Notes under the pieces: model-generated
What the model was told of the DNA's origin: nothing
The model's database searches: none
The model's input: the letters and a program-made list of their open reading frames with translations, nothing else
In this document: positions 11,201 to 28,800 of the stretch, piece after piece
How the letters are laid out: the number at the start of each line of letters is the position of its first letter
Numbering within the stretch: position 1 is the first letter of the stretch
NCBI GenBank assembly: GCA_947561715.1
Contig: OX387200.1
Coordinates: forward strand, 4,032,501-4,096,500
Origin: Ascidia mentula
Taxonomy: Eukaryota > Chordata > Ascidiacea > Phlebobranchia > Ascidiidae
Length of the DNA: 64,000 bases
Direction: 5' to 3'
Translations under genes and position numbers: made by a program

Positions 11201-11658
11201 CTAGGCGCTGTATACGCCCGAAGTGGGTATTGGCAAAGGGGAATTCCCACCGTTGTTACCCCCTAGCCGCTTCGTGGCGCTGTAAACGCCCGAAGTGGAT
11301 GTTGGCAAAGGGGAATTCCCACCATTGTTACCCCCTAGCCGCTTTGTGGCGCTGTAAACGCCCGAAGTGGATGATGGCAAAGGGGAATTCCCACCGTTGT
11401 TACCCCCTAGCCGCTTTGTGGCGCTGTAAACGCCCGAAGTGGATGTTGGCAAAGGGGAATTCCCACCGTTGTTACCCCCTAGCCGCTTTGTGGCGCTGTA
11501 AACGCCCGAAGTGGATGATGGCAAAGGGGAATTCCCGCCATTGTTGTTTCCTATCCGCTTTGTAACGTCACTTGCAGTCGCATAGCGCATGGAAGGTGCG
11601 ATGCTGGATGGCGCTAGTGGCTGGTGTAGATGCGTCTTTTTCATCACCCCCTTGGACA
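11201..11658 (-). CDS. C-locus tail exon 3: repeat-bearing cytoplasmic tail, frame uncertain
   Basis: A possible acceptor (GCGTTTAG) precedes 11658. Entered in phase 2, like every other tail exon of the family, it reads SVQGGDEKDASTPATSA and stops at 11568-11570. In the next frame it stays open to 11201 and reads MRYATASDV, then about five copies of a 24-residue unit TKRLGGNNGGNSPLP...SGVYSA. Each unit carries one tyrosine. Both frames look protein-like, so either a small indel has shifted the frame, or the exon is entered from a phase-1 donor not found here. It could be a broken tail exon. Orientation and position place it at the 3' end of locus C. Confidence 0.45.
11203..11565 (-). repeat. 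72-bp coding minisatellite, about five copies
   Basis: Tandem units begin every 72 bp (for example GCTGTAAACG at 11279 and 11351 on the + strand). They differ by few substitutions, mostly Thr/Ser at one position. The unit is a multiple of three and open on the - strand, giving 24 residues per copy. Confidence 0.9.
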
Positions 11659-16907: not shown

Positions 16908-18007
16908 CTATTGCAGAATATTGTAAGCTTCCGTAGTGGACGTCTCGCTTTTCCCCGCGTTGTGATAAATACAATCTGTGGTCGGTGGCGTTGTTGCGAA
17001 ATGCAGACGGTCGTATTCATCGTGTGCTGCGACCTGGCTTGGCGTATTGTATGCACTTTCATAACCGCTTGTCCCCCGTGGCTCGGGTTGTCTTCCATAA
17101 TGAATGGGTTTTCTTTGCTGTTAGGTTTCGTTGTTTGTGGTTTCGCTGGGATAGAAATTTTGCTTTTAATTCTTTACGTAATTAAGCGAAATGTCTTCGC
17201 GATTTTGCACGAATACTTTGTTTCACTGCAGCAACAGGCTACACAATCGTTCTTAACATAATCCCTTTCTGTGACATTCAATAAGTAAGGGAACGGATCC
17301 CAGTTACAGAAAATAAATACTTCGATACATTTATGGGAGCAAAACTTTATGCAATATTGAAGGAAAGAGAGAAGTTCCATCACAGTACGTTCATACCTGT
17401 TTAACGGAAACTCCATCACTTCTGCTTGGTTTTCAACCAAGTTCATGCCACCCGTTCTTTCTTTCTCTTTCTTGGGTCTTCTGTTTTCTCGCTTTCGACG
17501 AAGAAATATTGCGCATCCCAGCAATGCAACTATGAACAAAATACCCCCCGCTACTCCACCAATGATTGCCCCCTTGGGTTGGCTTTCTGTAATTGCTTCC
17601 ATACTGGTTTCCTGAGTGTTGATTAATTGCTTTGTGGTAAACGTGTTTGTGCTTTTTCCGATCGTTGTAAAACTGGTACCTCCAAAAGAATTATTTTTTT
17701 CACATATGTAACCACTTGAGGTGTTGCAATGCTGTCGTTTTATACGAATTGTAGTTGTTTGGGAATTGTTTGGTGCGAAAAGTGCGATGTATTCGCAATT
17801 ATCATCTCGTTTCGCCGCATCGGTATCTACCCAAAAGTTGCCACCTTGGCATGCATTTCTCAACTTTTTTCGCTGATTGTAAGAATCGATTTTCGCGAGG
17901 ATCTCATAATTGTCTTCGCATTGTTTCTTGGCCTCAGTAAAGTTTAGTTTTTTCGTTGAATGGAACGTGTAGGTAGTGTTGCCGTTACTTGCTGGAGAAC
18001 ACGCCAT
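16908..18007 (-). CDS. receptor E: lectin-like receptor with multi-tyrosine tail
   Basis: Exons 18007-17397 and 17112-16908, phase 2, give 271 residues. The domain shows YTFHSTKKLNFTEAKKQC, ACQGGNFWVD, and C...GYICEKN. The membrane helix (GAIIGGVAGGILFIVALLGC) and RRKRENRRPKK follow. The acceptor choice for exon 2 (AG before 17112) is inferred from phase; a better-looking AG lies six bases upstream but breaks frame. The tail has HYGRQ, YESAYNTP, DEYDRL, CIYHNA and a C-terminal EAYNILQ (YxxL). In-frame sequence just upstream of the ATG is hydrophobic (SSAIVL), so a start in an unseen upstream exon is possible. Confidence 0.75.
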
Positions 18008-18408: not shown

Positions 18409-18637
18409 TTAAAAGGGTTTATTTATATTGTATTTAAACATGATTCTATTTGAATAAGTTTTGGTAAATGGAGAAACTGATGATGCCGTTTTAGGCGAAA
18501 TATATTTTTCTCTAAATAAATCGATCTGAGCTGTTTGAAGATCGCTGTGTTTGGATTTTAATACATTATTATTGATACGGTGTGCGATCGACAGCCTGCC
18601 AGGGGCCTTTGGTTTTTTTGGATCCAGATTTGATTTA
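18409..18637 (-). CDS. F-locus tail exon 5: basic tail
   Basis: Acceptor GTGATTAG precedes 18637. Phase-2 entry gives S-KSNLDPKKPKAPGRL... ending MFKYNINKPF, 76 residues. It is Lys/Arg-rich with KYISPK and TYSNRI. AATAAA overlaps the last codons. It lies upstream of receptor E on this strand, so it can only serve locus F. No NPY module is present, unlike F tails 2-4. Confidence 0.5.
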
Positions 18638-19542
18638 CTAATCACATTAAAAACATATGTATTATATTCATTATGGTGCTTGTTATATTTTCAGTCTTGC
18701 CTATCTCTTTTGCTGCCTTTTTCATACTGATGAAATGTGAATGGGCCGCAAACACTCCCGACCTCATTGAAGTAGTCTAACCAAGCTCTAAACAATGTTG
18801 CAGGTGATACGATAGCACTGAATTTGTTCAAACTGACGAATCTTGCAAATTCGATGCAGAAACAATGAGACAAAATAACTGAAGCGGCGAAGATTTTCAT
18901 AAAATGAAGCAAAACAACGGTTTTTGATATGCTTTGCAGTGAATGAATACATTTGCACTGTGCTATAAATGACGCAGCTATTCAAGAATATGATAATGCA
19001 AAACCTCATCAAGTATTTTCAACATGTTAACAAACCAACGTTCGACCCTGTCAGGAACAACATCAGTTTGCATCGGATGTCGTTTAACGGTTGGTTTAAC
19101 TCCGTTTGTCGCGTACCAATGTCACCGCACCCACCCAATACATGTCCTATATAATGTGCGAGCAATGGGATGTATCAGCACTTCCAAAACTTACTGATAA
19201 TATAAGGAACACTTATTTGATGCATGAACAGATTCACAATAATAAGGGCATGTAACATATAAAACCCCATTCCACGCACAAAATTGGGGTGACGTTGTGC
19301 ACGTGAAGTTTGTTGGTTGTCTCATTCCAAGCTGTGTTGATTGTTGAGACAGCTCATGTCTACCGCATAATACCGCACAAATAAAACGTAACATCACGCA
19401 AGCATGTCGTTTTACGTTGGAATGGATAGGTTTACACGTCAAATATCTTGGAAATTGCGCCTTGTTTTTTCATACATCGTTGTCGAAAACAGAATTGTGT
19501 TTTCAGTAAAATTATGTTTTTGTGTGACAAGGTTGGTCGTAC

Positions 19543-19657
19543 TCAGCACTCTACATCTTGGCTTGCCGTTGCGTACATAGGTTCATCTTCCCCGTCTATC
19601 GTTGAATAGGGATTTTCCGTGGTATCGGTTTCTTCGCATTGTTGTTGAAACCCAAGT
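19543..19657 (-). CDS. F-locus tail exon 4: ENPYSTI tail
   Basis: Acceptor ATATTTTAAG precedes 19657. Phase-2 entry reads x-LGFQQQCEETDTTENPYSTI then DEPMYATASQDVEC and stop, 38 residues. It shares the leading Leu codon and ENPY module with tail exons 2 and 3. YSTI and YATA are candidate phosphotyrosine sites. Confidence 0.6.
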
Positions 19658-19987
19658 CTTAAAATATTAGGGACCTTACGTAAAGCTATTTTGCCAAAAA
19701 AACTTTTTGTACACTCTGACGAGATGCCAAGATGATTTAACGACGAACAAATAAAACATGGTCTGTTTTGTGTGACTTTCACACTAGGTGCTGAATCATA
19801 ACATTTACTTACTATTACTTTTTTTATGAAATCACATCATAATATATTTAGATAACTTTACATTAGTGATTTTGGTGCCTTTTTATCATATAGACGACCG
19901 TGGATGCTGGGTCTCTTCTATGAAAATCATATTGTCATGAAACATATTCACGACAAAGCAAAAAGTCGAATAAAAAAAAATTATTGT

Positions 19988-20225
19988 TTACTCGGATAGT
20001 CGCTTGCTGGGTAATCCGGAAGACGGTGACTTGTTTTTTCGTACTTTGCTGTAGTTGGAATCGGTTTGTGAGGGCCCTGCAGCGATCATCAGTTTGTTGT
20101 CATTATCCTGTCCGCAGTCTTCGCTTGCCATGTCGTAAGCACTTTCACTGTCATTGGGGTTGTCCGCTGTTGCGTACGGATTTTCAGTATCCTGAATGCT
20201 GTCGTTTGTCTGTTCAGTCAGAAGG
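19988..20225 (-). CDS. F-locus tail exon 3: ENPYATA tail
   Basis: Acceptor TGTGTTTTAG precedes 20225. Phase-2 entry reads x-LLTEQTNDSIQDTENPYATA, then SESAYDMASEDC and SNYSKVRKNK, and ends KRLSE, 79 residues. AYDMA is shared with tail exon 2. YSKV is a YxxV site. Confidence 0.65.
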
Positions 20226-20518
20226 CTAAAACACAATACGGCATGGTCAGCTTCAACGACGGTTTTAAGGTTTATCGCAAAACGCACGTATTGGATATTT
20301 TTGAAAATAAACGAAAGATTTTGCAGTTTTGATTCCAAACCGCGGTCAACTTTTAAGTTTCGGCAAACATGGGTTTGCGTTTCAAAAGCTGTTTAGCTTC
20401 GTCTCCCTGCGTAAAAACCATAGTGCTTTACTACGGTTTCTGCAACTTTGCAATTATATTTCCTATTGAGCGCACATCTTATAAAGCATGATAGTAAAAG
20501 TTTCAATATAGCAAAAGT

Positions 20519-20708
20519 TTACTTTTGTGTTGCGTTGTGTACTCCCAAGTGTCGAATTGGAGCATTCGCTGCTGCGGGCACTGGTGATTGGTCTGCCATA
20601 TCGTACGCACTTTCATCATCAAATCCCGTTACTTTATTTGTATCGTCTGGCAGGGAATAGGGATTTTCATTGTTGAATGTCCCATTGCATTCTTGGTGAA
20701 CAGTAAGT
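20519..20708 (-). CDS. F-locus tail exon 2: ENPYSLP tail
   Basis: A strong acceptor (TGTCTTCTTCAG) precedes 20708. Phase-2 entry reads x-LTVHQECNGTFNNENPYSLP, then DDESAYDMADQSP and ends HNATQK, 63 residues. The NENPYSLP and SAYDMA modules align with tail exon 3, so the two are paralogous exons. Confidence 0.65.
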
Positions 20709-20914
20709 CTGAAGAAGACATGACTGATAACGATTTACTAATACACGAATCTTGTGTTCTGGATGAGGTTTGTAAAATCTTTGGGTCTACGTGTCTAAGT
20801 ATAACCGGTCATCTGGTTTGTTTTTGGCATTGCTTGAGGATAATGCAATCGCCAAGTAAACTTTGCCACAGCTCTCCGGTCACGTTTTTATTGTAATTTA
20901 AGCACAAATACTGA

Positions 20915-21134
20915 TTACTTGTGAGGTATGAAAGTTCCCGTCAATTCCGACGCCTCATTACTCAGGCCTTTGTTGTATGTTTCACCCATTGTTTTTTGCC
21001 TTGATACAAATCCATCACAATCAATCTGGACTGGGACTTGGCTTGCCACGTCATCCGGACTTTCATTGTTACTTCCCTCACCTTTGTCCTGATCGTCAGC
21101 GTTCCGACTTTCGGTTGCGCTGCTCTCTCGACTC
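20915..21134 (-). CDS. F-locus tail exon 1: acidic tail
   Basis: After AG at 21136-21135, phase-2 entry reads M-SRESSATESRNADDQDKG... to GTFIPHK and stop, about 73 residues; an AG three bases further would also keep frame. It is acidic and Ser-rich with ETYNKGL as its one tyrosine site. AATAAA lies 23 nt past the stop (20892-20887), so this exon could end a transcript alone. Confidence 0.65.
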
Positions 21135-21208
21135 CTTGCGAAGTCAACAACAACAACAACGAATTAAGGGTTAGCTTGAATTAAAGCTTTATGTTATGCT
21201 TAACTTAC

Positions 21209-21488
21209 ATGTGTGTCGGTGTAAGCTCTCTGCTTCTCTTCAGGCAAAGAAATAAAAATACCCCTATGAACACAACAAGTAATATCCCAGCCACAACTAA
21301 CATAGCGATATGAGCGTCAGCTTGTGAATTACTTGCATCTTTCTGTGCAACAGATTGGTTTTGTGTGATGTAGAACTCTGTGACTAGCATTGTATTGTAG
21401 ATTGTTGTCGTGTCGATTGCAGAACTACTCTCGCCTAAAACAGGCATTTGAACTGATGTTTCGCCTCCGAAACAAATTTTTATTCCAC
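21209..21488 (-). CDS. receptor F: stalk and membrane exon; ectodomain not found
   Basis: The exon runs from a possible acceptor (TTCAAAACAG) at 21488 to a strong GTAAGT donor, ending in phase 2 after ELTPTH. It encodes a short Ser/Thr/Gln stalk, a membrane helix (IAMLVVAGILLVVFIGVFLF) and LKRSREL. The family's lectin-like exon is not seen in 21.5-22.9 kb; fragments such as TYWDAFVVQV on the - strand near 21.8 kb are in disrupted frames and may be a decayed domain. It could also start at the internal ATG at 21447. It is followed by five tail exons in matching phase. Confidence 0.6.
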
Positions 21489-22941
21489 CTGTTTTGAATT
21501 ACATGTTATTTGCTATGTATACCCCATGTAGCTCGTAAACAATTTAAATTATCAACCTTTTTTCGGTTAGAATCCTAATTAAATAGAAATCTGCCAATAC
21601 TTTATACAATAAGGAGGCGAATTTGTGACATATTTAACGAAAAGATACGTTGAAAGTTTCAGTATATTTTCATCTACCTTTCGCTTATACCAATATACAC
21701 AAATCTAACTGCTCATAACTGCAACCCACTCCCAACACAGCTCAGTAATCGCCGTTGATTACATTTCCCCGAATGAGACTAAGGGAGCCATCACCTGCAT
21801 TTTCACTTCCGCGTTGCTTTGTGTTGGCCGCACTTGTACAACAAACGCATCCCAATATGTGTAAAGTTTTCAAGCGGTGTTATCAGAAAACAAAATGCAT
21901 CAGAATCCTTCTTTGTCATTCTTCGTATTTGCATGTGAACATTCCTCTGGCCCCGTTGACTGCATGTTGGACACCTCCGGTTTAAGAACATGTTAAGCAT
22001 ATATACTTGATCTTTAATGGCAGGCGCTCTTCTATTTGGAATTGCGTTTATGAGGCATAAAAATTTAAACCTTTGTGTCCGCTGCGTGGCGGTAGAGGTT
22101 TAGTAGCGTGTGGTATGAAGTGACATAAGTAGGGCGGACGATTGTTGCTTTTTACCAAGTGGAAAACATGTTCGATAAACAGTCTGTTCAAATCTCGCGC
22201 CTGGTGCTGTAAAGGTCGTGATTTTGCAAGTTAATCAAGAGTTTCATTGCTACTGTTTTAATCAAAATATTTGTTTTCTAATGACTCACTTGTTAAAGTT
22301 CGATACGTACTGAAACGTCAGTTGAAAAGAAATGTTGTATTTATTTCGCGTAATAAAACAACCAAACACAGTGGTAACACAAACAAGCAGCTGAAAGGAA
22401 ACTGAATATTTCATTACACAAGACATTTTAATAGGTTTTTTGCAGCCCCGAAATACTTGTTAAATTGATCGTCGGAATAAAATGAAACTTACAGGTTTTC
22501 TAATTTACTAAATGCAAGATAATGTCCTCATTCATCTCCTGCCAGGGTTCCGTTAAATATTAATTCAAATATTTAATGTAGTTTCGCACAGCTTGTGTCC
22601 TTGTCTACACCCAGTGCATGATTAACCATTGGGCAAACAAGACACATTCCTTGGGGTTAGCTAAAAATAGAAGCCACCTAAATAACTGTAAGTTCAGGAT
22701 GAAGTAGGTCAAACGGTCAACAACGTCTTCTGTGAAGTTTCCTTCACAAGCTTAATTTCAGGTTTGTCGTATGTTTGTTCCGAGCAATATAAATGTGCAT
22801 TTTTAGACCACTTGTCACAATTTGTCTTGGAGCCAGCAGAGTTTCAATCTCACACTGTCTGCGCCACATTCACTTTAGCCCAGAAAAATTTCTGGTTTCC
22901 AGTTGTTTTGTCACTTTCGAATGAATGAAATGTGTTGCCTT
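21489..22941. other. gap between loci F and G; possible decayed lectin-like exon
   Basis: No open family exon. On the - strand at about 21970-21760 short stretches in different frames resemble parts of the lectin-like domain, ending at a possible CAG/GTGATG donor. Intact coding cannot be supported. The rest is featureless. Confidence 0.35.
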
Positions 22942-25846
22942 CTATTTCCGGCTGCCGACCGAATTTTTGTGCACGACGGCGTAAGGATCGGAAGGTGGTT
23001 CCCCCAACACTCTTGTTATCGTCGTGTACGAAACCCCCTGTTCTTCTTCGGGCACTAACAGTGTTGTGTACGTCACGCCACCTGTGCCCGCAATGCCTTC
23101 TTCGTTGCCCGGGATGGGTGGGGGATCCACGGTAGGGGGCGGGGGAATCACCCGGGTGGCTTTTGCCTGCTGCTGTGGCGTGTTGTCGATCGTCTCGTAG
23201 TGGGTCGAAATATCCCCGATGGTAGGGGCAGAAAGGGGGGGCGCTTTAGAAATATTTTGCTGCGCGCGCAGATCCGGCGTGGCGGCGCCAGAGCGCGTGT
23301 TTGCGGGGTCCGTGATGTAACTGTAGACGGAGTTGGATCCAGAGCGGTCCTCGTGTACCCGAATACTAAAAAAATACGTCGCCGTTTAAAAATCTCAAAG
23401 CTCCTATTGTGCAACAAACACGGAATCAATGTCAACTTGTATATTTGTGAACACCTAAATATCGGTTTCGGCTTCGCGAGTATATTTTTTGTATGACCGT
23501 GCCTAATCGACGGCTTAATTTTACCAAGAGTTTCGCTTGGATGTTCAAAAACGTTTAAAGCTTTAAATAAGTGCCCACATTTTACGCTGTGTTACAAGAA
23601 AGAAGCATGGTGATAGTGTCCCGTTGTGTTCAATGCTGGCAACTGATATTTTCAACTTTTAGTTTCTAGCTTGTTGTGGCAGTTGCGGCTCCACAATGCA
23701 TTACTTCATCTTGCTTATCCAGTTTCGTTCCTTTAGCGATCTTCATAGTAGTTCGCTATCTAGGCCTAATGCGTTAAAATTGACCGACCTACATGCCAGA
23801 CCGAATATGCAGAATGCATGCCGTGCAACGCGCTGGGACTAACACCACGATTCGTGCTCATTGTCGTCAGCTGCACGCACTTTGCTATGAAATTTGCAGA
23901 CCCTTGGGATGTTATGACAATTTTTCGAAAATTTTTTTACGTCATCACAGCAATCCCCATAAGTGGCCTTCGCGGCTTTCTGGGAAAATGAGACTCCCGA
24001 GAGTTGATTCCATGTATGTTAAGCAGTTATCGGGTATAATTTCGTTTTTCGGCGAAACGGGAGGTGGTTTGCGGGTATGTGTGTTGCTTATCGTGTGGTA
24101 GCCAAAAATCAAAACAAAATGCCACTCGCCAAATAGGCTCCTTTAACATTCGCGTGCTTTTCACGTGTATTTTACACACAAACGTCTATAAGGTAATATC
24201 TCGCCCAAGCGGTGTTTGCAATTCTGTACAATACTTGTTTATTTAACCAATATTACAATTTTAAGGCTCGCTGGTTTCGGTACATTTGGTGGAAATTTCT
24301 TGACGTTGGGGTATTTTATCAGTTGTTTTAGTAAACCAACATCGTTACATGACTGTCGTCTAGACGACCTATTTGGGCGCCGTTGCGACCATTATGAATG
24401 GATGAGTAGCAGCATTGGATTTTCGGCGTGGTGGGAGAATTGCACATACCCTTGTGTCGATTTAATGATTTGTACAACATATTTCCTTGTAGTAGTGTAT
24501 AATTGTTACTTAGACTGTTTGAAATAACTATAGATGGTGAGAAAAGTTTTTATATCGATTCAAATCCCATGCTTCCGAAATTTAAATGTAACCTTTCTTT
24601 GAGTATTTCCCCTTTGCTGCTATACTATAGTGAGAGTTTGCTATAGCAAATGCACTGTGACGTTGGTGTGAAATATTTTACGTACACCATGTCAGCACGT
24701 GACGTAGGTGCTAAACGCCTTTAGGCTGATACCTCCTAGTTGTTTATCAGCTGTGACACTATGACTCCGGCCGGTAATTGGCGATTAAAGCGGCCTGCCA
24801 AAACGGTTTTAATGTATTGTCTGCTGCAGTCGAGCTGCCTTGGGAAATGACGCAACAGCAGACCTGTTAATCAAACACGTGGATACTAAATGTGCTGTGC
24901 GTTCTTTTTGCTTCTGTTCGTGGTTTCCAGTTCAATGAATTGCTTACGGCGGTTTATTATACTATGGCTTTAAAAATAACTTCAATACATTCCTAAGTTT
25001 TTAAGATCTTATTTAAATGGTTCCTGATTTTCCGAAGTTTTTCGTCACACTTTTTTATTCTTGTAGCAAACAGTAAACAAGATCTGGCTAATCGCGATGT
25101 TTTACAGAAGATTGCTTTTACATCCCAATGTCACCATACTAAACTACAGCGTTCAGACTGTGATTACCAGAACCTTGAAACATACGTTTTGCTCCAATAT
25201 CTCACCTGTAATAGCCGTGATCTTCTTGAGTTGCAGCCCTCGGTGCGGTGGATGTGCTGCTTTCTTTTTGAGTTCCCACACATCCCAACGCACACTTCTT
25301 AAACCCAGCTTTGCTGAACTTCTTGGTGTTGAGGTGACGGAGTCGAAAGTGATAAAGTGCTACCAGCATAAGGAGGAGTAAAACCACGGCAAAGACGATG
25401 CCGATTATCAGTCCCACGTTGGTTTGAGCCAATGCCCCAGCCGAGGCCGGCGTGAGTAAAGCAGTGTTGTTTCGTGTTTCAAGGGGCGTTGTGGACGGGT
25501 TTATGGTGGCAACGTTGCCTGTGGTTCCAACAGGAACTTGACAGATGTAATTCCGTAGGCTGTTGCATGTGCTTATCGTCTGAGAATCGGCCCTCGCTTT
25601 GAACAACGGGCAGTCGCCATCTGTTTTAGCCACCAGATCGGAATTTGTAAACGCCACCCAAAACTCTTGATCATTTCGGCAGCACTCGAATAGGTGAGTA
25701 CGGATCGCTTGGGTATTGGCAAAGGCGATACCTCCACCTGTCTGTTGACCACATTTGTTAAAGGCGGCTGCGTAAGTTTCTCCCGTGGCCTCTTGATGGA
25801 AGATATAATGCAGACCGTTCAGCTTACAATCCGTCGAACACGTCAT
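22942..25846 (-). CDS. receptor G: lectin-like receptor with three ITIM-type motifs
   Basis: Exons 25846-25206 and 23365-22942, phase 2, with a 1.84-kb intron, give 354 residues. The domain runs from MTCSTDCKLNGLHYIFH through CCRNDQEFWVAF to C...NYICQV. A stalk, a membrane helix (VGLIIGIVFAVVLLLLMLVAL) and a basic KKFSKAGFKK patch follow. Exon 1 ends EDHGYY and splicing gives YYSI. The tail exon is GC-rich. It carries SVYSYI, VTYTTL and VSYTTI, all fitting [SIVL]xYxx[ILV], plus HYETI, DPYAVV and a PPPPTVDPPPIPG stretch. The two YTT motifs are 14 residues apart. ITIMs in known receptors recruit SH2 phosphatases; an inhibitory role here is inference. An in-frame stop lies four codons before the ATG, so no signal peptide fits. 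Confidence 0.8.
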
Positions 25847-28800
25847 GTTTTCTTGGTTTTAAATGTTTTTTATGTATTTCTACACAGTGCTAAAAAATAA
25901 CAACCCAAAACGTTGTAGACCAAATGCAAAAGCACTGTCACGGGTCGATGTTTGCAAACGTGTACTCCACATTCTGCATATTTTCCAGCAACCAATCCCA
26001 AAAGTTACATATTGTAATCTTTCGTTTTTACGCAATAAAAATCTTACAAAAATTCCTCTTTCCCTTCACCAGCGTTGCGACAGTCGCGGAGGAAATCACA
26101 CAAGACAAAACCCAAAATATACACTTTTTACCTCGCTACAAAATGTAGGTAAGCTTTCAATTTTTATGAGTTAATATACTCTGCCTATGTAAAAGCCGCT
26201 TGCCGCAGCAGTGCATACATACAAAAGCACCCGGCGAGCTTTTGCATCGAAACAAGCATTTAAATTAAGTCGTCTGAAAACAAACCCCGGAAACAGGACA
26301 TTTCGTGCGAAAAACCTTCATGCTAATACCACCGACTTCCTGAGAAACTGTTAATGCCAGCAGCTGAAGCTGTGAAGAAAAAACATTCCGTCCAAGGAAA
26401 GGAGCACGTTTGTCGCCCTAAATAACACAGCATCGTTGGGCTGCGGACGCGGGTGTAACATGACCCCTACAACCTCGCAACGTATTCCCTATTTGGAGTG
26501 GCAAAAAGCTCGTAAATCATATGTACTTTATACGTGCGGTTCCCTTTCTGGCAACTGCGCGCGTTAGCGCAGGAACAGCTTTTGTTGTGTATGTAAGCAG
26601 CTTGACTCGCACCCTTAGAATGCAATCACACCCCAAAAGACATCGCGTAGATTTGCCCAATAAAAAGGGGCAAAGTTATCGTGAATAACTACCCTAATAA
26701 AACTGGGGTACTAACTAAATGCGGCATCAAATCGTTTGAAAATTCTGCACTAGTTATCGCCGTATTTATAATTTGCCATGGTTGCTAATTTTTTGATTAG
26801 ACTTAGAAGGATAACTCCAAAGGCGGCATAGAAAACTACTCCTAATTATTATTGCATTTGTGATTTGGTTGTGGACATTACTAATTGCTAAGTTTGGCTA
26901 AAGACCTAAGAATAACTTACGACGTTTCGAAACGTTCAGCGTAAAGAACACAATCCTATGCAGCTGCAGCTAAATCCGATTTTCAAAGGTAGGAGCTGTT
27001 TTGTTGATGCCATATTGCCTAAACCTGCTGTTGGTAAAGCTTGTATCACGACAAAGCTATCGTTGTACTGATAAACGACAAAACGAAAAATGGCTTCGTT
27101 TTGTAGCTGCGTACCTCAAACGGGCACTTGAAAAATGACGTTGCTGCTATTTTTAACCACTTGCGTAGTGTTGATCAGTAAACGTTGTATGACATAATTC
27201 ATTACAATTTTCTGGGGCAACAGTTCAGTATGATTGCGCAATTTGTCACCAAAAAGAAGCTTGTCTTTTGGCAAGGTCCCAGTTGGCACATGCCCGTGGC
27301 TCTAATTTACTCACCAACACCACGCATGCAAATAACGACTGAATTTCCATGATTTAACTGCAGTATATTCACAAGAAACGCGCCCTGCATTCTGTGCAAC
27401 TAGCCATGCTCAGGCTTATCTATGTTTGGATGTATGGCGTGTTTTATTGTGTATTGTTTGCATAATCACCTCTTACGTGTACGTTTGACTAACGTCTTGT
27501 TTTATGAAACTCTAATATTGCGCTTGCCAATCTTTTGAGTTTTGAAGAGCCCTCAAAGTCTTTTGAAAAAAATATCTTGGTCTTTAACATGACACACTGT
27601 TTTTGTACTGAAATTTAATATCTTATAATAAAACATTTTATATTTAAACTTTAAATTCTCCATCACTCATTTTCTACGTCACATTATACGCACAATTAAT
27701 ACCAAGCAATAAGTCCCAAGCTATTTGAACTCGGGTAAAGTCGTCTTTGTCGTCGCTGTTTTTCTAAACAACAAGCTTATACACAAACTGGTTTAAGCTC
27801 TTCTTCCTTTTCCCAAAATGTTACTGTGTCCCAAAGCTGACTAAAAATATCTCCAGCTGCTAAACACAGTGGCGCAAATTATACAGATGCTAACAGTAGA
27901 GGGTAAATAAGAACATAACGCGTAAAATGTGTCACCAATTTCTTAGTGATCCGCTGACTCATTTTTGACAGCATATCGCCCGCGGTAAGCGGGACACGAG
28001 TCATTTAATCATGCATGGCTATACATGGATTTGCTTACGAGTCCTGACGCGATTAAGCAAAGCAGGCTAGAAGGCACCTTACCGTTTAAAACGGTGTTAA
28101 GACCTCTCGCAGCTGTCATCGTGCACTTAGCGCGCGAAAGCTTTTACTTTGTGGCGTCACAAAGTTGATTGTGACGTGTTAGAGGCTCAGTATTGGCTCC
28201 TTCCGGCGCAAATCGTTGCGCCGAGCAGAAGTAAACAAATGATGCGCGCGTACCCTTTGTTTCCGCTATTAGCAAACAATTTGTATTGTAGTATTTGATG
28301 CGGTTGGCCCAAACGCTGAAACCGCACTTCCTGTTGTCGATGGACACAATCAATCGTTCACTGCATCTATTAATTTATTTGTACTGCATACTTTTGAATA
28401 TATTTCGGTACTTTTTGCCTGTGATATAAAGTGGTTACTTTTAAAAACACAAACACTAACATACTAGTGGCAGGCAATCAACCGAAGGATGGGGCTTTGA
28501 GCTGAAAAAGGTTTCCATTTGAAGAAACTGAAAAGAGGAATTCAGCGCGTCTATATTCAAGATTAAGTTATCTTGGTGTTACTGTTCGTATGTTGCATAT
28601 TACAACGGTCTCACACTATGACAAGTGTGCTTGAGGACTGTTCGTGGAGCTGGGTGGTCCAACGAGTCTGTAGGCATCCTGGGCTACAATACTGTTTGAC
28701 CAGCAGGTAATGCTGGCGGACCACAAATATAAAAACTAAGGTTTACAGAATTAACTGCGACCGATGGTAGTCTGCCATAACAACATATAGGCTACTGCAT

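Follow-up and report, generated by a model that had tools for sequence, protein, structure and literature searches.

Candidate bank of four alternative cytoplasmic-tail exons at locus F, a relative of CTLD receptor genes in Ascidia mentula

Four exons lying behind a single stem/membrane exon at locus F, here designated F1 to F4, are on balance probably alternative terminal exons that arose by tandem exon duplication, the F membrane exon being joined to one of them. The use of more than one F tail is predicted from sequence. It is the best-supported reading because the four exons enter in the same phase, carry their own stops, share ancestry, have no membrane exon in the gaps between them and have kept open frames. 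An earlier note on this DNA had proposed five interchangeable tails; this proposal would hold for four of the exons and is not supported for the fifth.

The window analysed is a stretch of 64,000 nucleotides (C67:4032501-4096500) of an assembly of 196 Mb in 79 contigs. In the mitochondrial COX1 on contig 79 the conserved glycines (MIGGFGNW) appear only when AGR is translated as Gly, as expected for an ascidian. C72 denotes the contig which carries the other CTLD receptor cluster.

Anatomy of locus F

The features discussed below are all located on the minus strand of the window:

25202..25858, minus strand, gene G: ORF with CTLD, stem and transmembrane segment (TM), donor AG/GTGAG in phase 2; upstream of F
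22942..23385, minus strand, gene G tail ORF: ITIM-like SVYSYI, VTYTTL and VSYTTI
21209..21488, minus strand, F membrane exon: Ser/Thr-rich stem, transmembrane helix, KRSR stop-transfer, phase-2 donor AT/GTAAGT
20915..21134, minus strand, tail exon F1: 72 aa plus stop, acidic, preceded by a 74-nt intron
20519..20708, minus strand, tail exon F2: 62 aa plus stop, with ENPYSL and ESAYDMA
19988..20225, minus strand, tail exon F3: 78 aa plus stop, with ENPYATA, ESAYDMA and SNYSKV
19543..19657, minus strand, tail exon F4: 37 aa plus stop, with ENPYSTI and EPMYATA
18409..18637, minus strand, F5, claimed as a tail exon: coding score -4.9, AATAAA at 18423 inside the ORF and before the stop
17402..18007, minus strand, gene E: CTLD, stem and TM (aligned part; the exon extends slightly to the donor); downstream of F
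16908..17120, minus strand, gene E tail region, related to F3

The phase-2 GTAAGT donor placed at the end of the F membrane exon by the earlier note was confirmed and agrees with the consensus. The family HMM matches this exon with 18.8 bits (E 6.2e-8 if scored as a single sequence, E 0.0016 if the HMM is run over 2622 ORFs). The match is confined to the stem and TM, both of low complexity, which counts against a tail bank. The 5' end of the exon is uncertain. The acceptor AG ending at 21489 is poor (8/20 pyrimidines; 76% of 545 AGs equal or beat it), the one ending at 21435 is better (13/20 pyrimidines), and in-frame ATGs at 21447 and 21390 are further candidate 5' ends.

No CTLD was matched upstream of F by two family HMMs in the three frames of the gene strand between 22941 and 21489, and the coding scan of this upstream region gave weak segments only (best 7.8 over 21 codons, 22786-22724). 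We therefore regard F as a relative, not a complete member, of the ascidian CTLD-stem-TM receptor family, and the label of a lectin-like receptor given to the locus before is not supported. For the same reason the gene may be dead, which counts against the tail bank. F shares with the family a stem and TM with a phase-2 donor followed by a tail exon. It departs from it twice, by having four tails and by the CTLD not found upstream.

An AG acceptor, phase-2 entry and an own stop had been described for five exons. This anatomy is present in all five, F5 included, but F5 is not supported as an exon. Judged by its sequence, the locus shows at least two phase-matched, stop-bearing terminal exons behind one donor, as in a bank of alternative terminal exons. 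F2, F3 and F4 open with the Leu codon CTT and carry ENPY, and SAYDMA is common to F2 and F3, both in agreement with the earlier description. F1 has a degenerate module (NESPDDVASQ) and a single tyrosine (ETYNKG), whereas SNYSKV of F3 matches the pattern [ILVS]xYxx[ILV]; the four tails vary in number and context of their tyrosines. As claimed before, the stops exclude a use of the tails in series. A donor-like site inside F1 at 21081 was considered for serial splicing and rejected, being in phase 1 and incompatible with F2 to F4. No remnant of either a membrane or a lectin exon was detected in the gaps of 206, 293 and 330 nt that separate the tails (best E 0.084). The acceptor of F4 is ordinary (11/20 pyrimidines; 31% of AGs are as good), which counts against the tail bank.

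F5 (18637-18409) is probably not an exon. Its composition is non-coding (-4.9 vs +9.2 to +13.8 for F1 to F4), none of the other tails pairs with it at p < 0.05 in the comparison described below, and it contains the internal AATAAA; on these grounds it was rejected as a tail exon.

An AATAAA is located 22 nt 3' of the F1 stop. Neither AATAAA nor ATTAAA was found within 600 nt of F2, F3 and F4; variant poly(A) signals are present within 150 nt after F2 and F3, but not after F4. AATAAA within 600 nt is also absent for 12 of the 21 C72 tails and for 4 of 8 other non-F tails.

Coding potential and relatedness of the tails

The 3119 nt downstream of the F membrane exon were scanned for an acceptor followed by a phase-2 ORF and a stop, scored by the codon usage of 14 family lectin exons, F not being among them. 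F1 to F4 were the top four candidates (F3 16.2, F1 15.0, F2 13.2, F4 12.0), and the fifth-ranked one (9.4) is another reading frame of F3. Among 1000 order-1 Markov simulations of the 3119-nt region 998 yielded no candidate with a score of at least 12, 2 yielded one and none yielded two, the threshold of 12 having been chosen after the F4 score was seen. The rate at this threshold was 0.019 hits per kb in a 105-kb control (both strands of 52.5 kb), which also supplied the background codon counts.

In 14 C72 intervals a threshold of 9 gave two family tails and three other ORFs (non-tail ORFs reaching 11.6), and at this setting the scan misses the commoner C72 tail type. The scan returned one tail each for genes A, B, D, E, G and L041, for G together with an overlapping frame at 7.4; no tail was found for H, L042 and L043 at a threshold of 7. 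Gene C gave two candidates; as the first may splice into the second, they are not taken as a bank. When acceptors were disregarded in a cruder scan, F3 and F1 ranked high. The scores of F2 (9.4) and of the F stem (9.8) did not exceed there those of two stretches lying antisense to G exons (10.7 and 9.8), and this counts against the tail-bank reading.

The tails were compared in 91 pairs with 400 shuffles each (lowest possible p 0.0025), all p values being uncorrected. F2-F3 (z 6.0), F2-F4 (z 6.4), F3-F4 (z 6.1) and F3 with the gene E tail (z 5.3) all reached p 0.0025. The F1-F2 alignment gave z 4.2 (p 0.0075), and F3 against the gene C tail was weaker (z 2.8). The locus has in this respect tails homologous to family tails, F3 pairing with those of E and C. 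No 4-mer common to F2, F3 and F4 occurred in 20000 shuffles, whereas the real sequences have ENPY. A blind search for DNA repeats returned as its first family copies in F1 to F4 and in the gene E tail; the family has 6 copies, and the remaining one, within the E stem, seems due to chance. That F1 to F4 are related among themselves and with a neighbouring gene's tail indicates that they are coding exons now or were so recently. The tails without the shared modules had been described as acidic or basic. F1 is acidic, but it is not unrelated to the others, as it aligns with F2 and has the DNA repeats D1 and D2.

Divergence was estimated from hand-picked gapless blocks. In blocks of 23-30 codons, dS was 1.18 for F1-F2 and 1.34 for F3-F4 and saturated for F2-F3, at pN values of 0.31, 0.38 and 0.22, respectively. 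The F2-F4 pair (blocks of up to 33 codons) has dS 0.44, pS 0.33 and pN 0.35; without a synonymous excess this pair by itself gives no sign of constraint, which counts against the tail bank. In simulations of neutral drift by substitutions only, all four frames stayed open in 8 of 4000 runs at 0.3 substitutions per site and in 337 of 4000 at 0.1. The large divergence with all frames nevertheless open, rare under neutral drift, suggests that the tail duplications are old and that the exons were constrained for most of the time since.

A genome-wide query with the F membrane exon and F3 gave the self-match alone below E 1. As F1, F2, F4 and the E tail, all within the window, escaped this query too, it cannot show the absence of such tails elsewhere.

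Related receptor genes in the window and on contig C72

The donor of gene G is phase-compatible with the F tails, and the three ITIM-like motifs of its tail all match [ILVS]xYxx[ILV]. Gene G has a CTLD fold, settled by structure; by sequence nothing below E 0.5 was found for it in the PDB, and a Pfam scan of 10 proteins gave no match above the curated cut-off. Motifs of the EPN/WND type, the calcium- and sugar-binding motifs of C-type lectins, were not seen by eye in the CTLD alignment.

In the gene E tail the ENPF and ESAYN modules sit in different frames, and the frame used would depend on which of a pair of acceptors, CAG and CAAAG at a distance of 5 nt, is spliced. A candidate tail of gene C (window 11204-11563) contains a 72-bp tandem repeat in five copies encoding GVYSATKRLGGNNGGNSPLP repeats, by which the tyrosine motif is multiplied. 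On the plus strand, window 31000-63000 carries repeated fibrinogen-C-like ORFs, which we take to be intelectin-like; the one scanned had a match to Pfam PF00147 just under the cut-off.

Phase 2 at the membrane/tail junction was read by eye in A, B, C, D, E, G, H, L041, L043 and the intact C72 copies and is common to the family (L042 was not read). The C72 cluster (18.09-18.19 Mb, L029-L038) consists of 20-odd nearly alike CTLD genes, with a varying number of Thr-rich stem repeats. A single sequence pattern picks out 21 donors there, and behind every one of them lies one tail. This count, which excludes the gene at offset 6363, is based on sequence patterns and homology and would miss unlike tails. 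An orphan open tail exon without a membrane exon is located at L033:5119-5373 (C72:18135119-18135373). It may be a relic, or else belong to the upstream gene as a second tail; stray tails therefore do occur, which counts against the tail bank.

A signal peptide seems to be missing from the CTLD receptors. In the window and C72, the CTLD is immediately preceded by an M-x(1-4)-C start in 31 of 33 family ORFs (HMM E < 1e-6), and behind this start the 31 ORFs show no strongly hydrophobic stretch (best 12-residue mean 1.07). There is no AG between the in-frame stop and the Met in 20 of the 31, and the in-frame addition of an upstream exon is thus excluded; in the other 11 it is possible, most plausibly for L042. 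The receptors may be reverse signal-anchor (type III) proteins.

Rival readings and relation to known systems

The locus might be a relic, which we consider possible but rather unlikely: F would once have been a complete receptor with a tail bank, or several genes, and would have lost its CTLD recently, the tails being intact as the loss is young. This agrees with the missing CTLD and the lack of a strong coding segment upstream, the poor acceptor at 21489, AATAAA signals not close behind F2 to F4, and, in the C72 cluster, the orphan tail and broken-looking CTLD genes (split ORFs near C72 offsets 55191 and 95692). The four tails, the donor and the stem/TM frame are however all open, a state of the tail frames that 0.1 neutral substitutions per site left in a small part of the simulations only, and the loss would thus have to be recent. 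Alternatively, F may be a working 'headless' gene, made without a CTLD: a single membrane helix on a short Ser/Thr stem, joined to any one of four tails, that would serve the adjacent CTLD receptors as a switchable signalling partner. We regard this as unlikely; if true, the choice of F tail by splicing would set the output of the whole receptor cluster.

It is quite unlikely that the bank is shared with gene G, whose phase-2 donor would be joined either to its own ITIM-like tail or, skipping this, to F1 to F4, with the F membrane exon as a side product. G, 4.1 kb upstream of F1 and in the same orientation, ends in phase 2, F has no CTLD of its own, and the intron preceding G's own tail is already long (about 1.8 kb). 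But that tail is a good one, the F membrane exon with its consensus donor ends just 74 nt before F1, and junction introns in the C72 cluster are short (about 180-380 nt in 21 of 21 pairs). F1 to F4 would very improbably be the tails of separate tandem genes whose lectin and membrane exons were all deleted. The family does grow by tandem gene duplication, and F3 resembles the E tail (z 5.3) about as closely as it does F4 (z 6.1), but the gaps of 206-330 nt hold no remnant, and several independent clean deletions sparing the tails would be required. A chance origin of F1 to F4 as functionless ORFs, probably true of the claimed fifth exon, is extremely improbable for these four in view of the simulations, the homology among them and with the E tail, and their codon composition.

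If F1 to F4 are alternative terminal exons, the single tail exon of a relative of CTLD-type single-pass receptors would have been duplicated in tandem, and splicing would join the F stem/membrane exon to one of four terminal exons that all end in a stop of their own. The choice of F1 would give a tail without the ENPY module, F2 one with ENPY and SAYDMA, F3 one with ENPY, SAYDMA and an ITIM-like tyrosine, and F4 a short tail with ENPY and MYATA. Phosphorylated tyrosines of the different tails would presumably recruit different SH2 partners.

CEACAM1, FcgammaRIIB and CD46 combine one ectodomain with alternative tails by splicing, resulting in different signalling; they have few splice forms and are not known to have a bank of four homologous terminal exons. 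The C-type-lectin-like receptors of the vertebrate NK complex (NKR-P1 and Dectin clusters) are described as type II proteins and have the tail at the N-terminus, whereas in the ascidian family the CTLD is N-terminal and the tail C-terminal. Among the literature matches listed there was no CTLD receptor or CTLD-related gene with a tandem bank of homologous tail exons.

The statement that no such tail array had been described was too strong, since tail switching is known from FcoR of Botryllus (PMC12065747) and Dscam of Penaeus (PMC6851185), according to the available parts of these papers. At some FcoR loci of B. schlosseri, in the fuhc locus, ITIM and hemITAM tail motifs are swapped by alternative splicing. 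FcoR resembles F in belonging to an ascidian and in being a multigene family of type I receptors with tail switching by splicing, which for F is predicted. Compared by description, it differs by an Ig/sushi ectodomain and a signal sequence, gene G having a CTLD, and the part of PMC12065747 available describes no tandem tail-exon bank for it. Shrimp Dscam has, in the available part of PMC6851185, alternative tail exons with stops, 44.1/44.2, as well as tail exons whose use is optional. It is like F in the former, but is an Ig/FnIII receptor varying mostly in the ectodomain, with two stop exons compared to four homologous ones. Splice switching of tail motifs is thus already described, and four homologous tail exons in tandem, behind a membrane exon related to those of the CTLD genes, would be a new form of it.

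Should the four tails be in use, a single ascidian receptor gene would carry a tandem bank of signalling tails from which splicing picks the output. Exon duplication would then be a simple route to switching between activation and inhibition, as in Botryllus FcoR, which belongs to another receptor family, and locus F would be a direct test case for the origin of paired immune receptors.
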